Assembly: GCA_021297895.1 (NCBI GenBank)
Contig: JAJTHN010000007.1
Location: 1-44,902, forward strand
Direction of reading: 5' to 3'
DNA: 44,902 nucleotides
Origin: Phycisphaeraceae bacterium
GTDB lineage: Bacteria; Planctomycetota; Phycisphaerae; Phycisphaerales; UBA1924
Position numbers and translations under genes: made by a program. Positions 6,415-40,109 of this stretch are shown one piece after another. Below the pieces are notes generated by a model. That model searched no databases. It was not told the origin of the DNA and saw only the letters and a program-made list of their open reading frames with translations. The first letter of the stretch is position 1, and each line of letters starts with the position of its first letter.

Positions 6415-7365
6415 TCAGTTGCCGGCGGTGCCGCCACCAGCGATGGCCGTCACGGGAATCTGCGTGATGCCCGTCAGGATGGTGTTGGAGGTATCGAGAT
6501 TCATCGACACGAAACGCTGGGTTGCACGACCGGCGGGGATGGTGCGCTGCGAGCTGGGCAGCCAGGAGTAGCCATCCAGAGCGCGGTGCACATAGTCCGG
6601 GGCGTCGACGATGATGTGACCTTCGTAGTAGCGGGGGTCGGGCAGCGGGCCGCCGCCGCTGGTCCACTGCTTGTCCTCGGCGTGCTGCGTGATGATGCCG
6701 ATGATCTCGGTAGCGCGCTCGCGGCGGTCCTCTTCGAACTGCTCCGGCGTGCGGGGCTGCTGGTTGCCGGTGTTGCGGAAGGGCGAGCCCTGCGAGCCGC
6801 CGTCGCCACCCTGCAGCACGCGGTCGAGGTCGATCTCGGGAGCCTGCGTGAAGAAGGGGGTCTCGAAGAGGAGCTGATTGATGTCGTACAGCTCAACGCG
6901 GCGGAAGGTGTTCAGAATGGCCTTGGGGCCGATCTGGATCCTGCCGTTGGGAGTCAACTGCCACGTGACGACGAGGTACGGATCCGCCGGGTCACCAACC
7001 TGAGCCAGCACCTTCGTCAGGAAGGTCATGGGGTCGATTTCCTTGGCGTTGAGCGAGACGGGCGCGTCCTTGGCCATGCCGTCGGGCTGCTTATCGGAGC
7101 GCCAGATGGGCTCGAACTCGGCCTTGGTCTCGCGCTCGATGTACTCCAGAACGCTCGAGAGCGGGGTGCCCTCGTTGAGTTCGATGGTGATGGGCTTGCC
7201 AGTGAGCAGACGCATGACGTTGTCACGACCGGGGTTGTCGGACACGCGGCGCATCTCGCCACCGGCGGGCTGGGCCGACTGAGCGACGACCGTGCCAGCG
7301 CAAACGGCCAGCGAGGCCAAGCCGAGGATCAACATCGAACGATTGAACGGACGGACGGTGCTCAT
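6415..7365 (-). CDS. Exported protein with secretin N-domain-like segment, unknown function
   Basis: A 316-residue protein with a clear signal peptide (SMLILGLASLAVCAGTVVAQ, cut after about residue 29). Residues about 55-125 (KPITIELNEGTPLSSVLEYIERE, then VSLNAKEIDPMTFLTKVL) resemble the small beta-alpha STN/secretin N-terminal domains that mediate contacts in outer-membrane complexes; this is a weak resemblance. The rest has a low-complexity Gly/Gln segment and HIIVDAPDYVHRALDGY. ATG 7365 has AGGAG six bases upstream, a good ribosome-binding site. It forms its own transcription unit, with a terminator hairpin behind it. I do not recognise a specific function. Confidence 0.8.
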   Translation of the reverse strand: MSTVRPFNRSMLILGLASLAVCAGTVVAQSAQPAGGEMRRVSDNPGRDNVMRLLTGKPITIELNEGTPLSSVLEYIERETKAEFEPIWRSDKQPDGMAKDAPVSLNAKEIDPMTFLTKVLAQVGDPADPYLVVTWQLTPNGRIQIGPKAILNTFRRVELYDINQLLFETPFFTQAPEIDLDRVLQGGDGGSQGSPFRNTGNQQPRTPEQFEEDRRERATEIIGIITQHAEDKQWTSGGGPLPDPRYYEGHIIVDAPDYVHRALDGYSWLPSSQRTIPAGRATQRFVSMNLDTSNTILTGITQIPVTAIAGGGTAGN

Positions 7366-18460: not shown

Positions 18461-19528
18461 GTGAAGATCATCCTTGCCAATCCTCGGGGTTTCTGCGCCG
18501 GCGTCCACATGGCCGTCGACGTGGTCGACCAGTTGCTCGAACTCTGCAAAGACCTGCCGATTTACGTCTATCACGAAATCGTGCACAACAAGCACGTCGT
18601 GCAGCGTTTCATTGACCGCGGCGCGATCTTCGTTGAAGATCTCAACGATGTCCCGCCGGGGAGCATCATGGTCTTCAGCGCTCACGGGGTTTCGCCCGCG
18701 ACGCGCGAACTGGCCCGTCAGCGGAACCTCACCGCCGTCGACGCGACCTGCCCGCTGGTGACCAAGGTCCACTCCGAGGCAATCCGCTACGCCAAGCAGG
18801 GCTACCAGATCCTGCTGGTCGGACACGCCGACCATCAGGAAATCATCGGCACCCGCGGCGAGGCTCCCGAGGCAACCCAGGTCGTCGAGAGCCCCGAGGA
18901 CATCCCGGGCCTGACGATCAAGGACCCCAACAAACTCGTCTACCTCACGCAGACCACGCTCAGCACCGACGACGCCGCGGTGATCATCGATGCGCTCAAG
19001 CGTGCGTTCCCGAACATCAAGGAGCCGCCGGGCTCGGACATCTGCTACGCCACCACCAACCGCCAGCACGCGGTCCGCCAGATCGCCCCCGAGTGCGACT
19101 TGGTGCTCGTCGTCGGCAGCAAGAACAGCAGCAACTCGGTGCGCCTGACGGAAATCAGCCAGAACGTCGGCGTCCGCGCGTACCTGCTCGATGATGTGAC
19201 CGAACTGCGCGATGAGTGGTTCACCAACGCGCCCGGAGCGGGCCGCGACGCGACGATCCTCCTGACCGCCGGCGCCAGCGCGCCGGAGGACCTGGTCGCC
19301 GAGATCTGCAAGACGCTCCTGAGCCGCTTCGGCGGATCGATCGAGCAGCGCGACATCGTTCCCGAGGACGTGGAATTCGGCCTTCCCGCGACGCTCAAGA
19401 AGATCATGCGCGACAAGGGCATCGATCCCGACGGCCGAAAGATCCGCGTCGGCAACTGGCAGATCACCGCGGAGGCGTACGGGTACGCACCAGGGATGGT
19501 GCCCGTGACGGTCAGCGCACGCGGCTAA
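18461..19528 (+). CDS. ispH: 4-hydroxy-3-methylbut-2-enyl diphosphate reductase
   Basis: A 355-residue iron-sulfur enzyme, the last step of the MEP pathway, giving IPP and DMAPP. The three cluster-binding Cys are present: Cys12 (RGFCAGV), Cys97 (VDATCPLVTKVH) and Cys195 (GSDICYATTNRQ). YHEIVHNKHVV, SAHGVSP, VGHADHQEIIGTRGE and TQTTLS are family motifs. GTG 18461 is the only sensible start. The divergent neighbours hpnC/hpnD consume farnesyl diphosphate made from these products, so supply and use of isoprenoids sit back to back. pdhB follows 33 bp later. Confidence 0.96.
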   Translation: MKIILANPRGFCAGVHMAVDVVDQLLELCKDLPIYVYHEIVHNKHVVQRFIDRGAIFVEDLNDVPPGSIMVFSAHGVSPATRELARQRNLTAVDATCPLVTKVHSEAIRYAKQGYQILLVGHADHQEIIGTRGEAPEATQVVESPEDIPGLTIKDPNKLVYLTQTTLSTDDAAVIIDALKRAFPNIKEPPGSDICYATTNRQHAVRQIAPECDLVLVVGSKNSSNSVRLTEISQNVGVRAYLLDDVTELRDEWFTNAPGAGRDATILLTAGASAPEDLVAEICKTLLSRFGGSIEQRDIVPEDVEFGLPATLKKIMRDKGIDPDGRKIRVGNWQITAEAYGYAPGMVPVTVSARG

Positions 19529-34480: not shown

Positions 34481-37378
34481 TCACGCCCCCCCGCACCCCT
34501 CAAAGAACAACGCAAAGAACGCGGCGAAGTCGGCGCCGTTGACCGCGCCATCCGGCCCGCCGCCGTCGAGCGTTGTCGCGCCGTCGGCGTTGGCGATGTC
34601 CGCCGCGGCCCGTGACGGGTCGCCATCGCCCGCGAAGAACGCCGCGAAGAACGCGACGAAGTCGCCGTTGTCGATCGCCCCGTCGGGCCCGCCATCGGCG
34701 AAGGCCGTCTGGCCGTCGGTCGTCGCGATATCCGCCGGCGAGCACGCGGCGGGGTTCACGCGGACCGCGACATCCTGGCTGGTCGCCTGGCCGCAGGCGC
34801 TGACGAGCGTCACGGCGTATCGGCCCGAGTCCGACGGCTGGGCGCCGGTGATCAGCAGCGAAACAGGCGAACCATCGGTCGGCGTGATGATGTCGGTCGC
34901 GCCGCCGATGACCGTGCCGCCATCGGGCGATGCGCCGCCGGGGCCGTTGAAGATCGGCACGCCGTCTCGCGACCACCGCACATACTGCACGCTGTACCCC
35001 GGCGAAGGCGTGAAGGTCACCTCGATGGTCTGGCCCGCGCTGATGGTCGGAGCGGCCGCCGTCGGCTGCCGCGCGATCGTCGGGATGCCGGTGAAGGTGT
35101 AGCGGGCCAGCATCGTGGAGACACGACCGCCAGCCATCCCGAGGCGACCCGCGGCCAAAAGCTCACCCCCGGGCAGGCGGCTCACGCCGTTGATCGTTGC
35201 TCTGTTGGGCAATGATCGAGAGCCCATGGTCGCACCCCCGCGGAGGTTCGACCATGCGCCTTCGCGAAAGCGGGCGATGCTCTGGAATCTGTCGATCGGA
35301 GCAAGCACTCCGGATGAGAACCCACCAAAGGCGATGAAGTCGAGTTCGCCCGTGGTCCTCGCGTTGGTCGCCAGATGCAAGAGATTAATGATCCGACCGG
35401 AGAAGGACGGCCCCGGATTGGTCAGGAATGGCTCCCACGAAACATCGTTCCAAACACGCATTGCGGGGGCCGATCCCGTCGAAACAAGCGTAATGAACCG
35501 CCCATCGGGCAATTGTGTGAAGTTCGTGATCTCGCCAGCGATCGTGCCGCCCAGCCGCTTCCACACGCCGCCGTCGGCGATCTGGACCGACATCCGCAGA
35601 GCGGTGCCGCTGGCCGACTCCTGTCGCCCGACAAGCACCTGGCCGCAGGGCAGCGCCACGCGGTTGAGCATCAGCGCCTCGAACGCCGGGCTCAGGGGGA
35701 GGTAGTCGATGCCGTTGAATCGTGCCATCGCGTCAAACTGTGCGCCGTCGCTGCCCGTAAAAGCCGCGATGGCGATCGGCTCACCCGCCGCCGTGGTGGT
35801 GCCGGTGAACACACCCGACTTCAACGGCCGCCACTCGTCGCCGTCGAGCATGAACGCCCTGCTCTCCGGGCTGGCCTGCTCTGTCGGCCTGATCAGTCGC
35901 GTCGCGACGATCCGCCCGTCCGGCAGCGTCGCCGCACCAGAGATCGGTCCGCCGATGTTCGGCGCGACATACCGCAGTTCAATCCCGTCCCACGCGGCGA
36001 TGTTGAAGATCCGACGATCCGCCGTGGTGCGGAAGTTCCCCGCCACCAGCAGCCGCCCGTCGGGCATCGATGACATCGTGCTCACCGTGCCGACAACCCC
36101 GGGCGACGCCGGCTCGAAGGTGTCGTTGACGATCCGCGCCACGTTGATCAACGGCAGGTCGTTCGGCGTGTACCGCCCGCCGAAGTACACCTCGCCCGTC
36201 GGCAGGATCGCCAGGCTCGCCGGCGGCGCGGTCTCGCCCAAGAAGAACGGCGTATACGACGTCAGCGTCAACAGTCCAACCTCCGGCGGCGTGTACGCCG
36301 GGCCGATGGGAAACAGCACGCCGTTGCTGATGCGTGCCACCAGGTACCGCTTGCCCCTGATCACCAGCGATCCAGCGAAGTACAGGTCGCCGCTCGGATG
36401 CTGCGCGATCGACGCGAACGTCGTCCCGGCCTCGAACGCGTTTCCCACGACAGGAACGAACGTTTGTCCGTTGTAGATCGCCACGCCGTTGAGACCATCG
36501 ACCTCACCACTGGACGTGAACCGCCCCGCCAAAATCGTCCGCCCGTCGCTCAGCGTCGCGGCAGCGCTCACAGCGGCGTTGAGTTCCTTCTCGATCTTCT
36601 CGGGGCCGTCGGAGGTGATGCGCATGACATTGCGAGAAACGATCGATTCGCCGTCTCGACTGTGGACATACTGAAAGTCCCCGGCCAGGATCAGGTTTCC
36701 GTCGGCCAACGGCAGCAGGGCATACGAGGGAGAGGTCACCAGGGCGTTCGCGCTCAGGGACCCGCTCAGGAACTCCGGCGTGAACTCGAGCGTGTTCATC
36801 GCCGCAGTGCCGCGTAGGCGCTGACCCGAAAGCGGGGCGTGAGCGCCGATACTCAGCACGTCACCATTCGCAGCCTGCGTTAGGGACGTCACACGCGGGA
36901 ATGCGCTGCTGACCACCGAGGGCACCTGCACCGTCTTCCATTGGCGGGCCTCATACACAGCGATGCAATTTCCGATATACACCCCTTCGATGATGCTGGC
37001 GTCAAATGGGGTGCCGACGTACAGCCGCCCGTCGGCCGCCCCGAGTACATGCGTCAGGGGCCCATCGCTCGTAACTGCCGCCGCTGAAGTGACATCCACG
37101 CCCGACCACCGCTGCGTCCGCGGATCGAGCACCGCGATGTTCGGAGCGATGCTGCTGCCCGCAATCATGAAGTCCCCAACCGCCACGAGCCGCGCATGCT
37201 CCGGCCCCGGACCATCAGGGTCCCACGCCGAGATCGCGTTGATCTGGCCATTCACCCCCGCCAGAGGCGGCCCGGGCAGCCACTGATCACACTGGCCGAA
37301 CGCCGCTCCGCCATAAACCGCCACGCCCACCAACGCCATTACCGCCGCCCGAAATGCAACCCGTGAGCACATCTGCAT
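34481..37378 (-). CDS. Large secreted protein with delta-60-like repeats, an Ig-like domain and dockerin modules
   Basis: A 965-residue protein. A signal peptide (VAFRAAVMALVGVAVYGGAAFGQ) ends near residue 29. Residues about 35-780 consist of repeated units built on LPDGR-x3-AG-x-F (for example LSDGRTILAGRF, MPDGRLLVAGNF, LPGGELLAAGRL), similar to delta-60/kelch-like beta-propeller repeats. An Ig-like domain (about 800-890; VRWSRDGVPIFNG, then DSGRYAVTLVSACG) follows. The end carries two dockerin-like calcium motifs (DGAIDNGDFVAFFAAFF; DGAVNGADFAAFFALFF) and EGCGGA. GGAGG five bases before ATG 37378 supports the start. Probably secreted or cell-surface; ligand unknown. The same C-terminal modules end the unrelated sugar dehydrogenase-like protein at the window start. 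Confidence 0.88.
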   Translation of the reverse strand: MQMCSRVAFRAAVMALVGVAVYGGAAFGQCDQWLPGPPLAGVNGQINAISAWDPDGPGPEHARLVAVGDFMIAGSSIAPNIAVLDPRTQRWSGVDVTSAAAVTSDGPLTHVLGAADGRLYVGTPFDASIIEGVYIGNCIAVYEARQWKTVQVPSVVSSAFPRVTSLTQAANGDVLSIGAHAPLSGQRLRGTAAMNTLEFTPEFLSGSLSANALVTSPSYALLPLADGNLILAGDFQYVHSRDGESIVSRNVMRITSDGPEKIEKELNAAVSAAATLSDGRTILAGRFTSSGEVDGLNGVAIYNGQTFVPVVGNAFEAGTTFASIAQHPSGDLYFAGSLVIRGKRYLVARISNGVLFPIGPAYTPPEVGLLTLTSYTPFFLGETAPPASLAILPTGEVYFGGRYTPNDLPLINVARIVNDTFEPASPGVVGTVSTMSSMPDGRLLVAGNFRTTADRRIFNIAAWDGIELRYVAPNIGGPISGAATLPDGRIVATRLIRPTEQASPESRAFMLDGDEWRPLKSGVFTGTTTAAGEPIAIAAFTGSDGAQFDAMARFNGIDYLPLSPAFEALMLNRVALPCGQVLVGRQESASGTALRMSVQIADGGVWKRLGGTIAGEITNFTQLPDGRFITLVSTGSAPAMRVWNDVSWEPFLTNPGPSFSGRIINLLHLATNARTTGELDFIAFGGFSSGVLAPIDRFQSIARFREGAWSNLRGGATMGSRSLPNRATINGVSRLPGGELLAAGRLGMAGGRVSTMLARYTFTGIPTIARQPTAAAPTISAGQTIEVTFTPSPGYSVQYVRWSRDGVPIFNGPGGASPDGGTVIGGATDIITPTDGSPVSLLITGAQPSDSGRYAVTLVSACGQATSQDVAVRVNPAACSPADIATTDGQTAFADGGPDGAIDNGDFVAFFAAFFAGDGDPSRAAADIANADGATTLDGGGPDGAVNGADFAAFFALFFEGCGGA

Positions 37379-37673
37379 GTTCGCCTCCCTGCTGATCAAT
37401 CGAACCCCCACACTCGTTCTCCACGCCCCGCACGCCCCCCGAACGCCCGCGCCCTTCCCGCCATCACGTCCAACCAGCCGCCAAGCGGCCATGCCGACCT
37501 CCACGCCGAACCGGACCGACTCTTTGCTATATCGACCAACCCCCCGCCGCAACGCCAAGACATCCACACGCAGACCTCGGGACTTACAGATCGGCAGAAG
37601 ACCACGCGGAACAAGTGGTGGACTGGCGGAGCGGCGCAGAAGCGTTGCAACCGCGAGGCGGACGGGGGCCTTC

Positions 37674-37708
37674 GGCATTCGGCCATAGGCCATGGGCCAT
37701 CGACCATG
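37674..37708. repeat. 7-bp tandem repeat, five units (GGCCATN)
   Basis: GGCATTC, GGCCATA, GGCCATG, GGCCATC and GACCATG in a row, directly followed by a poly-G run. Same heptamer family as 33847-33867. Confidence 0.7.
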
Positions 37709-37739
37709 GGGGGGGGCGGGGTCCGGGAGGCGAGTTGGG

Positions 37740-37886
37740 GAGTCCAGCTCGCGAATTGGGGACCTCAGCATGCGAGTTGAGGAGCTCAGGACGCGTGGTG
37801 AAGAGCTCAGCATGCGAGTTGGAGAGCTCAGCATGCGTGCTGAGGAGCTCAGCACGCGAGTTGGAGAGCCCAACTCGAAGATTGTG
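37740..37886. repeat. 21-bp tandem repeat, seven units
   Basis: Seven consecutive 21-bp units start at 37740, 37761, 37782, 37803, 37824, 37845 and 37866; the consensus is close to GAGCTCAGCATGCGAGTTGG plus one A. Outer units are more diverged than the central ones. Because 21 is a multiple of three, each reading frame repeats every seven codons; one rightward frame reads as ELSMRVG/EELSTRV heptads like a coiled coil. There are no spacers, so this is not a CRISPR. Confidence 0.85.
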
Positions 37887-37941
37887 CTCCTCATTTTCGA
37901 TGCGGGACTCTTCAATTCGCCGCCGGAACGCCAAAAATCGG

Positions 37942-37960
37942 CGATTCTGCGCCAGAATCG
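37942..37960. repeat. Perfect 8-bp inverted repeat
   Basis: CGATTCTG, loop CGC, CAGAATCG. It lies between the 21-bp array and the hairpin pair, in non-coding DNA. Confidence 0.5.
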
Positions 37961-38084
37961 GCGGGTGATGGGGTGGCGAGCAGGACGGAATGCGAACGCG
38001 GGAGGGGTGTGTTTGTGGAGACAAGGGGGCGGGGGGGATGGGTGGTGGCCTCGGGGCGGCGGGGGTCCGACGCCCCCTCCGCCT

Positions 38085-38155
38085 CGAAGACTCGGCACCT
38101 CCCCCGTTGGAAACGGGGGAGGATCAAGGCGAAGAGTCGGCACGGGAGTGCCGAC
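38085..38155. repeat. Paired-hairpin REP-like element
   Basis: Hairpin one: CCTCCCCCGTT/AACGGGGGAGG (38098-38122, 3-nt loop). Hairpin two: GTCGGCAC/GTGCCGAC (38136-38155, GGGA loop). Each is introduced by a near-identical 14-mer, CGAAGA-S-TCGGCAC, at 38085 and 38130. Two strong palindromes with a short spacer resemble REP/BIME-type interspersed elements. No RAYT transposase is in the window. Confidence 0.6.
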
Positions 38156-38168
38156 CTACTCAGAGCCC

Positions 38169-38196
38169 GATGGCCGATGGCCCAAGGCCGATGGCC
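38169..38196. repeat. 7-bp tandem repeat GATGGCC, four units
   Basis: GATGGCC, GATGGCC, CAAGGCC, GATGGCC: the reverse complement of the GGCCATC heptamer. Two further heptamers in forward orientation (GCCCATC, GGCCATG) follow the lnt start codon at 38225-38238. Confidence 0.7.
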
Positions 38197-38222: not shown

Positions 38223-40109
38223 ATGCCCATCGGCCATGACCGCCCCAGCCCGCCTCCCGTTGTTCGGTCGCTGCGCTGGTGGCAGTGTCTGCTGGCCGGG
38301 GTGCTCTTCGGGCTGGCGCTGGTCTTCGCGTTTCCGCCGGGGTCTTTGGCGATCGCCGGGCCGCTGGCGATCGTGCCGCTGGTGCTGGTTGCGGCGCGCG
38401 TCGGCACGGGTGGCCCGCGCGGCAGGCTGCGCCGGGCGGCCCTGCTGGTCGGTCTGGGCGCGCTGCCCTCCCTGGCGTACCTGCACGCGTTCATCATCGA
38501 CATCACCGCGCCGGGCTATCCGCTGCTGTGCCTGTACCTCAGCGCGTATCCCGCGGCGTTCGTGCTGCTGCTGGGGCTCTGGCTGCGACGCATCGGCCCG
38601 CGGGCCATCGGCCGTCGCGTGCCCGTGGCGATGGTCGCCGCGACGCTCTGGGTCGGTATGGAGATGCTCCGCGGCGAGTGGATGCTCGGGGGCTATCCGT
38701 GGTACTTCATCGGGCACCCGCTGATCGACTTCTGGCCCATCGCCGTCGCCGCCAGCGGGTTCGGGGCCATCGGCGTGTCGCTCATGGCCGCGATGCCCGC
38801 GGGGCTCATCGCCGAGCACCTCTCGCCCGGGCCGGTCTCGCGTCGCATCGGGTCGTGGGTGGTCGCGGGGCTCGTGTGCGTGGGCATGCCCGTCGTCGCC
38901 TCGATGACCCGCACGCCGGTCGCTCCGCCCGCCGCCGCGGCGACGGCCGCGGCCGGGACCTTCCGCGTCGGCGTGATCCAGACCGATGTGCCCCAGAGCA
39001 ACAAGGGTTCCGGCACGGGCGCCGACCGTATCGTCCGCATGCTCAGGTGGCTCGACCTGACGCGTCAGGCCGCCGCGCCCGATGCGCAGGGAAGGCGCCC
39101 CGGCGTGATCCTCTGGCCCGAGACGATGTTCCCCGGCACGGCGCTGAACCCCGAGGCCGTGCGCGTAGCGCGCGAGAACGACCTGTCGTACGCGCTGGCC
39201 AATGGCCGGCGCGCCCTCGTGCACGAGTTCGCCGATCTGCTCACACGCCAGCAGGCGGAACTCGACGTGCCCATGATCGTCGGCGCGATCGCCATCGACG
39301 GCTGGAAGATCACCGTGCGGCCCGATGGCTCGATCGACGATTCGTTCGATGGCAAGTTCAACAGCGCGATGCTCATCCGCGGCGGGCAGGTCGAGCCGAT
39401 GCGCTACGACAAGCGCCGCCTCGCCCCCTTCGGCGAAACGCTGCCGCTGGTCGGCGCGTTCCCCACGCTCAAGCGCTGGATCATGGCCGTCGGGGCGCGC
39501 GGGATGAGCTTCGAACTCTCCGAGGGCACGAAGAACACGCGCTTCGAACTCAGCGCGACCGGCCCGAGCACGCCCGCAAACACGCCGGACTCCGCCGCCG
39601 CGGCAAGCCCGACCGTCCGCATCGCCACGCCGATCTGCTTCGAGATCGCCTACCCCGAGAGTTGCCGATCGCTCGCGTACGAGCGCGGGCGGCACGCGGC
39701 GGATCTGCTGGTGAACCTCAGCAACGACGGCTGGTTCGGTGCCTATGCCGTGGGACGCCCGGGGCACATGCTCCTGTGCCGCTGGCGCTGCGTCGAGCTC
39801 GGCCTGCCGATGGTGCGCTCGGTGAACACGGGCATCAGCGGCGTGATCGATTCGCGCGGCCGGATCATCGCCACCGCCTTGCCCACCCCCGCACCGACCC
39901 CCGCCGAACCCGGCCCCGGGTACACGCCGCAGGAACGGATCCTCGTGCACGATGTGCCGATGAACGAGAACGCACGGACGCTCTTTGGCATCATCGGCGA
40001 CATCACCGGGTGGCTGTGCGTGGGTCTGGCGGCGGTCTGGTGCGTGCTGCTGATGGTCCTTCGCCCCGAGCCGACGCCGAGCGCGCACGCGGGGGATAAT
40101 CACCCATGA
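38223..40109 (+). CDS. lnt: Apolipoprotein N-acyltransferase
   Basis: A 628-residue inner-membrane enzyme that adds the third acyl chain to lipoproteins. About seven to eight membrane helices (residues 19-230) precede the nitrilase-like periplasmic domain. The catalytic triad is visible: Glu300 (ILWPETMFPG), Lys397 (YDKRRLAPFGE) and Cys472 (TPICFEIAYPE). A low-complexity Ala/Pro/Thr insert lies at about 448-463. The protein is about 100 residues longer than typical Lnt, mainly from inserts. ATG 38223 has no ribosome-binding site and sits next to heptamer repeats, so the start is provisional. The stop overlaps the next gene start as ATGA; that gene encodes a lipoprotein. Confidence 0.92.
   Translation: MPIGHDRPSPPPVVRSLRWWQCLLAGVLFGLALVFAFPPGSLAIAGPLAIVPLVLVAARVGTGGPRGRLRRAALLVGLGALPSLAYLHAFIIDITAPGYPLLCLYLSAYPAAFVLLLGLWLRRIGPRAIGRRVPVAMVAATLWVGMEMLRGEWMLGGYPWYFIGHPLIDFWPIAVAASGFGAIGVSLMAAMPAGLIAEHLSPGPVSRRIGSWVVAGLVCVGMPVVASMTRTPVAPPAAAATAAAGTFRVGVIQTDVPQSNKGSGTGADRIVRMLRWLDLTRQAAAPDAQGRRPGVILWPETMFPGTALNPEAVRVARENDLSYALANGRRALVHEFADLLTRQQAELDVPMIVGAIAIDGWKITVRPDGSIDDSFDGKFNSAMLIRGGQVEPMRYDKRRLAPFGETLPLVGAFPTLKRWIMAVGARGMSFELSEGTKNTRFELSATGPSTPANTPDSAAAASPTVRIATPICFEIAYPESCRSLAYERGRHAADLLVNLSNDGWFGAYAVGRPGHMLLCRWRCVELGLPMVRSVNTGISGVIDSRGRIIATALPTPAPTPAEPGPGYTPQERILVHDVPMNENARTLFGIIGDITGWLCVGLAAVWCVLLMVLRPEPTPSAHAGDNHP

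Follow-up and report, generated by a model that had tools for sequence, protein, structure and literature searches.

An intergenic palindromic 21-bp array in a Phycisphaeraceae bacterium and its relation to other period-21 arrays of the genome

Minisatellites elsewhere have mixed periods, and the iterons of plasmid origins are direct repeats of ~20–22 bp in helical phase. Integron attC sites keep the shape of a folded strand while their sequence varies, with one site per gene cassette, and the small dispersed repeats of cyanobacteria are 21–27 nt long, intergenic, able to fold and associated with short tandem repeats. Palindromic repeats tagged with GTAG or CGTC (REP/BIME clusters) have been reported from Planctomycetes (PMC3733652). 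No description of palindromic 21-mer arrays was found in the titles and abstract openings among the literature matches listed. Here we describe an array of 21-bp units in a 44,902-nt contig of a Phycisphaeraceae bacterium (the window, i.e. the whole stretch of DNA that was analysed; contig C66), and compare it with other tandem repeats of the same genome and of related genomes.

The 21-bp array and its intergenic surroundings

The array sits in an 844-bp gap with a divergent minus-strand gene on one side and lnt on the other, which bears out its earlier description as intergenic. The gap and its bordering genes comprise the following features.

34481–37378, minus strand: divergent gene, N-terminus signal-peptide-like by sight, with weak beta-propeller matches (DUF5122, Rax2), both below cut-off
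37667–37710, plus strand: array of GGCCATC-type 7-mers, left of the 21-bp array, with an inverted counterpart at 38166–38196
37730–37876, plus strand: 21-bp array of seven units, consensus GCGAGTTGGGGAGCTCAGCAC, dyad symmetry at p = 0.017 against column-permuted units
37731–37877, plus strand: large imperfect inverted repeat formed by the array, arms 37731–37781 and 37827–37877, 51 nt, 73% complementary
37877–37918, plus strand: two possible degenerate units, weak, with 9/21 and 7/21 matches, ending where flank A begins
37918–38070, plus strand: flank A, common to C71:139411–139562 (91%), C22:69570–69699 (88%) and C1:18363–18413 (51 bases, 86%)
38071–38125, plus strand: hp, a 55-bp interspersed hairpin repeat with stem CCTCCCCCGTT / AACGGGGGAGG, 26 matches in a 724-kb sample
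38136–38159, minus strand: GTAG-tagged stem-loop, GTAG GTCGGCAC TCCC GTGCCGAC, REP-like by sight
38223–40109, plus strand: lnt, apolipoprotein N-acyltransferase, with LNT_N and CN_hydrolase domains

TRF placed the array at 37730–37869 (period 21, 6.7 copies, 76% matches, 0% indels, score 147) and also called a 63-bp higher period. The best score for periods of at least 15 in 20 block-shuffled windows was 78, compared with 147 for the real array; as in minisatellites, units of more than 10 bp are repeated head to tail beyond chance. The sequence-only reading had put seven 21-bp units at 37740–37886. Seven units were indeed recovered and the array length agrees, while the placement is offset by 10, to 37730–37876 in the present phase. 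The GAGCTC and GCATGC palindromes named in that reading are present in the array, and 37730–37876 is without stops in four of the six frames, in line with its description there as open in several frames. Its statement that outer copies are more diverged than inner ones was contradicted: the successive copies match the consensus at 18, 18, 19, 16, 19, 18 and 17 of 21 positions, and the most diverged (16/21) is an inner one. One copy in module phase reads CTCAGC ATGCGT GCTGAG GAG, the others having mismatches or G.U pairs. The units are contiguous, whereas the repeats of a CRISPR are separated by unique spacers. Together with the two possible degenerate units the array would fill 37730–37918, exactly 9 x 21 bp; consensus matching in the gap background averages 5.8/21, and 8% of background positions reach 9. 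The lnt frame is open upstream through the array as far as 37692.

At the gathering score, Rfam returned three tRNAs and nothing else in the window. The five window proteins that were scanned contained no replication or partition domain, and two of them had no match at all. The two 7-mer stretches are mutually inverted around the 21-bp array (37667–37710 and 38166–38196; 31 nt, 87% complementary). Arrays of 7-mers (GGCCATN) and 8-mers (CAGTGGCN) also lie near hp and near some 21-bp arrays (window, C71, C22 and others).

An exact 20-mer of the window array occurs once in its genome (84 contigs, 3.48 Mb), and at an E value of 0.001 the 231-bp array region had no match in 40 relatives, a set that holds no genome of the same genus. 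With the gap as BLAST query, 84 matches at E ≤10 were found in its own genome, most of them on or around 38071–38125. The matches on C71 and C22 begin at 37918 and extend through hp with 89% and 81% identity, and at both places a 21-bp array adjoins flank A on the same side as in the window. The array units of C71 and C22 are alike, and both are unlike the window unit; between the window and L004/L005, flank A is the same and the array is different. Among 162 other genomes of the family, flank A had weak partial matches in 4, and the flank of array L079 had short matches in 21. Fifteen loci from these two sets of matches had no TRF row of period 21; one had a period-42 row, inside a 15-mer/57-mer repeat (L197). 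At the end of C1 (L044), an inverted duplication of ~100 bp is visible by eye, with its centre inside a TTCAGGAGCGCTCCTGAAGAG unit that adjoins flank A; it may have arisen when a palindromic array was assembled.

Period-21 arrays in the genome and its relatives

Tandem repeats were counted in 723,849 bp, made up of the window and six complete or almost complete contigs, each of which was already known to contain hp matches at the time of its selection. At a TRF score of ≥80 and ≥2.5 copies, with overlapping rows allowed, period 21 accounted for 22 rows, followed by periods 42 (8), 16 (5), 63 (4) and 8 (4), and every other period had one or two rows. Rows whose periods are multiples of 21 can be grouped into 25 loci, the unit sequences of which are mostly unlike, and several loci fetched through hp also had 21-bp arrays of other units. 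Near-perfect two-copy duplications showed no marked excess at 21 bp (2 rows, equal to 13, 17 and 18), and no general bias toward 21-bp duplications was found. Because period-21 rows dominate the census, isolation of the window array is unlikely, and treating it as a single curiosity was incomplete. The search of the genome and its relatives proposed earlier thus found the sequence only here, but the 21-bp layout is not confined to this place. The window array has the look of an ordinary minisatellite but appears to be a member of an unusual class. A longer repeat, L064:12578–14367 (C33), has a 141-bp period, 12.5 copies and 47 codons per unit, and lies perhaps inside a coding gene.

Dyad symmetry was assessed by scoring all 21 axes per array and comparing the best with 300 column-permuted versions, in 30 arrays hand-picked from TRF rows (28 from this genome and two from relatives) with some weaker rows omitted; L038, L043 and L087 in this set are paralogues of L079, L080 and L058. 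Thirteen of the 30 arrays were symmetric at p ≤0.017, among them 12 of the 28 own arrays, with ~0.5 expected; the 12 include the window array (p = 0.017) and L038, the paralogue of L079. The remaining 17 (16 of 28 own), including purine-rich arrays and L058/L087, failed the test. The best dyad axis was also the basis for unit layout and for the covariation and arm/centre counts given below. Laid out in this way for 15 hand-picked arrays, units follow a plan of arm 6, centre 6, arm 6 and spacer 3, as in CACCTT CGCGCG AAGGTG GAG or TTCTGC ATCGAT GCAGAA CAC at other loci. Arms are mostly unlike between loci, with the exception of L024 and L042, which share TTCTGC/GCAGAA, and spacers are often GAG or CTC. 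In L056, L079 and L080, units of two or three types occur together; the arms of the different types are unrelated, and every type is an approximate palindrome. Purine-rich 21-bp arrays occur at L086:3827–3955 and 6735–6963 (C22) and at L073:18248–18358 and 19256–19324 (C79); the three of these four that were tested have no dyad symmetry and combine the same 21-bp step with a very different sequence type.

Two pairs of paralogous cassettes could be aligned, L079/L038 over 929 positions with 89% identity and L080/L043 over 663 positions with 94% identity; because they are positioned near contig ends, they may be strain variants or assembly effects. L058 and L087, also a paralogous pair, are located within long contigs and are one unit apart in copy number. 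With alignment ends trimmed, arrays had 3 gap events per 45 substitutions compared with 9 per 68 outside (p 0.37); an apparent scarcity of indels in arrays relative to flanks (p 0.03) was due to untrimmed alignment ends and was rejected.

An hp match lies within 2 kb of 13 of the 25 array loci, or of 11 of 23 without two loci made of hp itself, compared with 6.4% of 20,000 random positions, a binomial comparison that treats the array loci as independent despite their clustering. The arrays of L052, L056, L057, L079 and L080 lie between two hp matches, one of these ten matches being 22 bases long. The hp repeat is itself duplicated at L062:635–876 and L057:13891–13951, with periods of 126 (6 x 21) and 21 bp. 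A 243-base query containing hp found matches, mostly via hp, in 23 of 100 genomes of the family, the present one among them, and hp-bearing records of other organisms are titled Phycisphaerales or Planctomycetota. Of the relatives' loci fetched by a flank or hp query, 2 of 28 had 21-bp arrays, and rows of period 21, 42 or 63 were absent from 17 named stretches of relatives; the two period-126 rows in these stretches are likely 42-residue coding repeats. As an obligatory partner of the arrays hp was therefore rejected outside its own genome (2/28 loci, 0/17 stretches); since relatives' hp loci are mostly without 21-bp arrays, hp does not carry the array along.

G098 (240 kb sampled) and G023 (93.5 kb), which belong to one other genus, have 21-bp arrays in stretches partly chosen around hp matches; at the same threshold none were found in G002, G013, G017, G052 and G082 (460 kb together). 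At a TRF score of 36 and ≥2.6 copies, these five genomes had 3 period-21 rows, G098 and G023 had 9 and the own sample had 32. The genome encodes a single full-length Y1 (RAYT/IS200-like) transposase domain at C71:143723–144067 (L059, L159), with a partial second match on C16; no reverse transcriptase was found in it. The full-length domain lies 4 kb from the L004 array, and its flanking repeats include GTAGCCACGGGTGGAGC. It adjoins GTAG-type repeats of its own that differ from hp, and was rejected as the mover of hp.

Explanations for the arrays

The typical self-complementary unit is an 18-bp imperfect palindrome followed by a 3-bp spacer. The reading we favour, with middling confidence, is that the window array is one of a class of apparently non-coding palindromic 21-mer arrays, a minisatellite family of REP-rich gaps in which hairpins assist expansion. 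Intergenic cassettes would be copied around by recombination or REP-type mobility; the self-complementary unit would let one DNA strand fold back during replication, which could lead to gain and loss of whole 21-nt units, and arm-to-arm copying may hold the units roughly palindromic. Layout, not sequence, would then persist, and any function would depend on strand folding or on the even spacing of the dyads and not on an encoded protein. The strict 21-bp step is neither predicted by simple slippage nor explained by hairpin-assisted expansion. It is conceivable, if rather doubtful, that a dedicated process in some Phycisphaerales builds and rebuilds the arrays between genes with a conserved 6-6-6-3 layout and 21-bp step, and that a protein or polymerase activity reading both shape and spacing maintains them while sequence is free to vary by locus, much like sites elsewhere that are recognised by their structure.

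That the arrays are transcribed and act as hairpin strings with 21-nt units, in the role of leader RNAs, decoys or stability elements and with shape counting over sequence, seems unlikely. The region 37725–37920 folds strongly relative to dinucleotide shuffles (z −6.5 on the plus and −6.0 on the minus strand), which is not telling alone, because any tandem self-complementary unit beats such shuffles. The seven units also beat column shuffles (plus strand, z −2.3, 6/200 as good; minus strand, z −1.8, 10/200 as good), and L057 and L017 are among several further arrays that do so, the range over 17 hand-picked arrays at their own period being about −5 to +0.7; but the two strands are about equal against shuffles, and the longer span 37730–37918 folds no better than column shuffles (z −0.5 and −1.0). 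Change is somewhat less frequent in arms than in centres over 12 hand-picked arrays (123/1193, 10.3%, vs 129/967, 13.3%; p 0.03), as it is between L079 and L038 (arms 4/158, centres 13/123; p 0.01), with 0/65 and 1/56 changed between L080 and L043. Arms change as much as or more than centres in 4 of the 12, namely the window (12/70 vs 9/56), L086, L024 and L058, and arm conservation is at most weak support for a maintained structure. No covariation within units was seen in the window array (p 0.50, six units). Across 14 hand-picked arrays, 805 paired arm positions compare with 733 in arm shuffles, an excess that is strong only because unit types differ within arrays; with unit types separated the expectation is 797 and compensatory change is not significant (p 0.08). 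On the plus strand of the window, G.U pairs (0.17) exceed A.C pairs (0.06), but the asymmetry is inconsistent across arrays and was rejected as a pointer to the transcribed strand. To the tRNAs of the window, Rfam adds six matches at four related loci, all below gathering score. The RNA-structure array suggested earlier is partly supported, by the strong folding and by the column-shuffle comparison of the seven units, set against the result for the longer span, the covariation not seen and the arms that vary as much as the centre in the window array. Tandem candidate dyad sites on one face of the DNA, bound by a dimeric protein or by several, as at operators, iterons or centromere sites, would suit a step of 21 bp (two turns of B-DNA), dyad-symmetric units in 12 of 28 own arrays, the recurrent GAG or CTC spacers and the position of the window array between divergent genes. 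This is nevertheless distinctly unlikely, as arms are mostly unlike between loci (L024/L042 excepted), so that one sequence-specific protein could hardly serve all; the domain scan of the five window proteins, two of them without any match, adds no replication or partition candidate, and indel suppression in arrays was not upheld.

A period of 21 bp is also seven codons, and the arrays might encode heptad, coiled-coil-like peptides such as ELSMRVG and ELRLTPE, for which we see little likelihood. At least one frame is open in each of 21 hand-picked arrays, the L004/L005 arrays begin after an ATG in shared context, and synonymous excess in one frame occurs in L073 (z 3.1), L052 (2.5), L058 (2.5) and L056 (2.4). 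A z above 2 in single arrays is, however, expected because six frames are tested per array; no frame is consistently favoured over 14 hand-picked arrays, and among the window copies the best z in six frames is 0.6, so the nascent coiled-coil segment considered in the sequence-only reading finds no backing. In L058/L087, variation is greatest at the second position of heptad-frame codons (by our mapping of the counts), in L004 the fibronectin-like C-terminus and the heptads are in different frames, and the palindromes would be left unexplained. Fourteen of 17 arrays checked have no overlapping selected coding-like ORF (for two, no ORF qualified); the three that do are the window, by upstream read-through of lnt, L086, where the array is the upstream part of the ORF of a putative ArgK-like gene, and L178 of a relative, and in the first two the open frame continues into the next gene. 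The window repeat probably does not code for protein, and GC-rich palindromic arrays can pass for genes on account of their open frames and heptad-like peptides. Least probable of all, with a slender chance, is an isolated and neutral local minisatellite with a dyad by chance: its single genomic 20-mer, its absence from the 40 relatives, a dyad p of only 0.017 and arms kept no better than the centre would fit, but period 21 dominates the arrays of the genome, flank A stands beside other 21-bp arrays too, and dyads recur in 12 of 28 own arrays.

Comparison with described repeat systems

A single repeat length dominates the tandem arrays of this genome; most of them are unlike in sequence, and many have palindromic units. 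Should a machine (a polymerase in a fold-back step, a recombinase or a bound protein) dictate the 21-bp step, many separate natural products of its action would be present in the genome. REP/BIME elements are similar as short palindromic intergenic units that are sometimes tandem (PMC3733652), and a GTAG-tagged stem-loop near the array and a Y1 transposase domain in the genome add to the likeness. REP families, however, consist of one sequence at many loci, whereas here the units are mostly locus-specific in sequence and follow one another in tandem at exactly 21 bp. Dispersal of a single palindromic sequence in many copies is seen for hp and not for the window 20-mer, and no GTAG/CGTC tag stands beside the stem in the way of REPs: by sight, GTAG is absent from the window units and CGTC occurs in them once, on the minus strand, at one junction. 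Iterons share direct repeats of ~20–22 bp in helical phase; they have an adjacent replication initiator gene, for which the five window proteins scanned offer no replication domain, and the arrays differ further in occupying many loci with mostly no shared sequence. With attC sites the arrays share a folded-strand shape kept while sequence varies, but attC sites are longer, come one per gene cassette and are not tandem at 21 bp. The small dispersed repeats of cyanobacteria are likewise small, intergenic and folding, with short tandem repeats nearby, but are dispersed copies of one sequence, as opposed to tandem arrays of differing sequence. Minisatellites or VNTRs resemble the arrays in their tandem units of >10 bp with diverged copies, and one paralogous pair differs by one unit; what sets the arrays apart from them is that 21 bp (with 42 and 63) dominates and that many units are palindromic.
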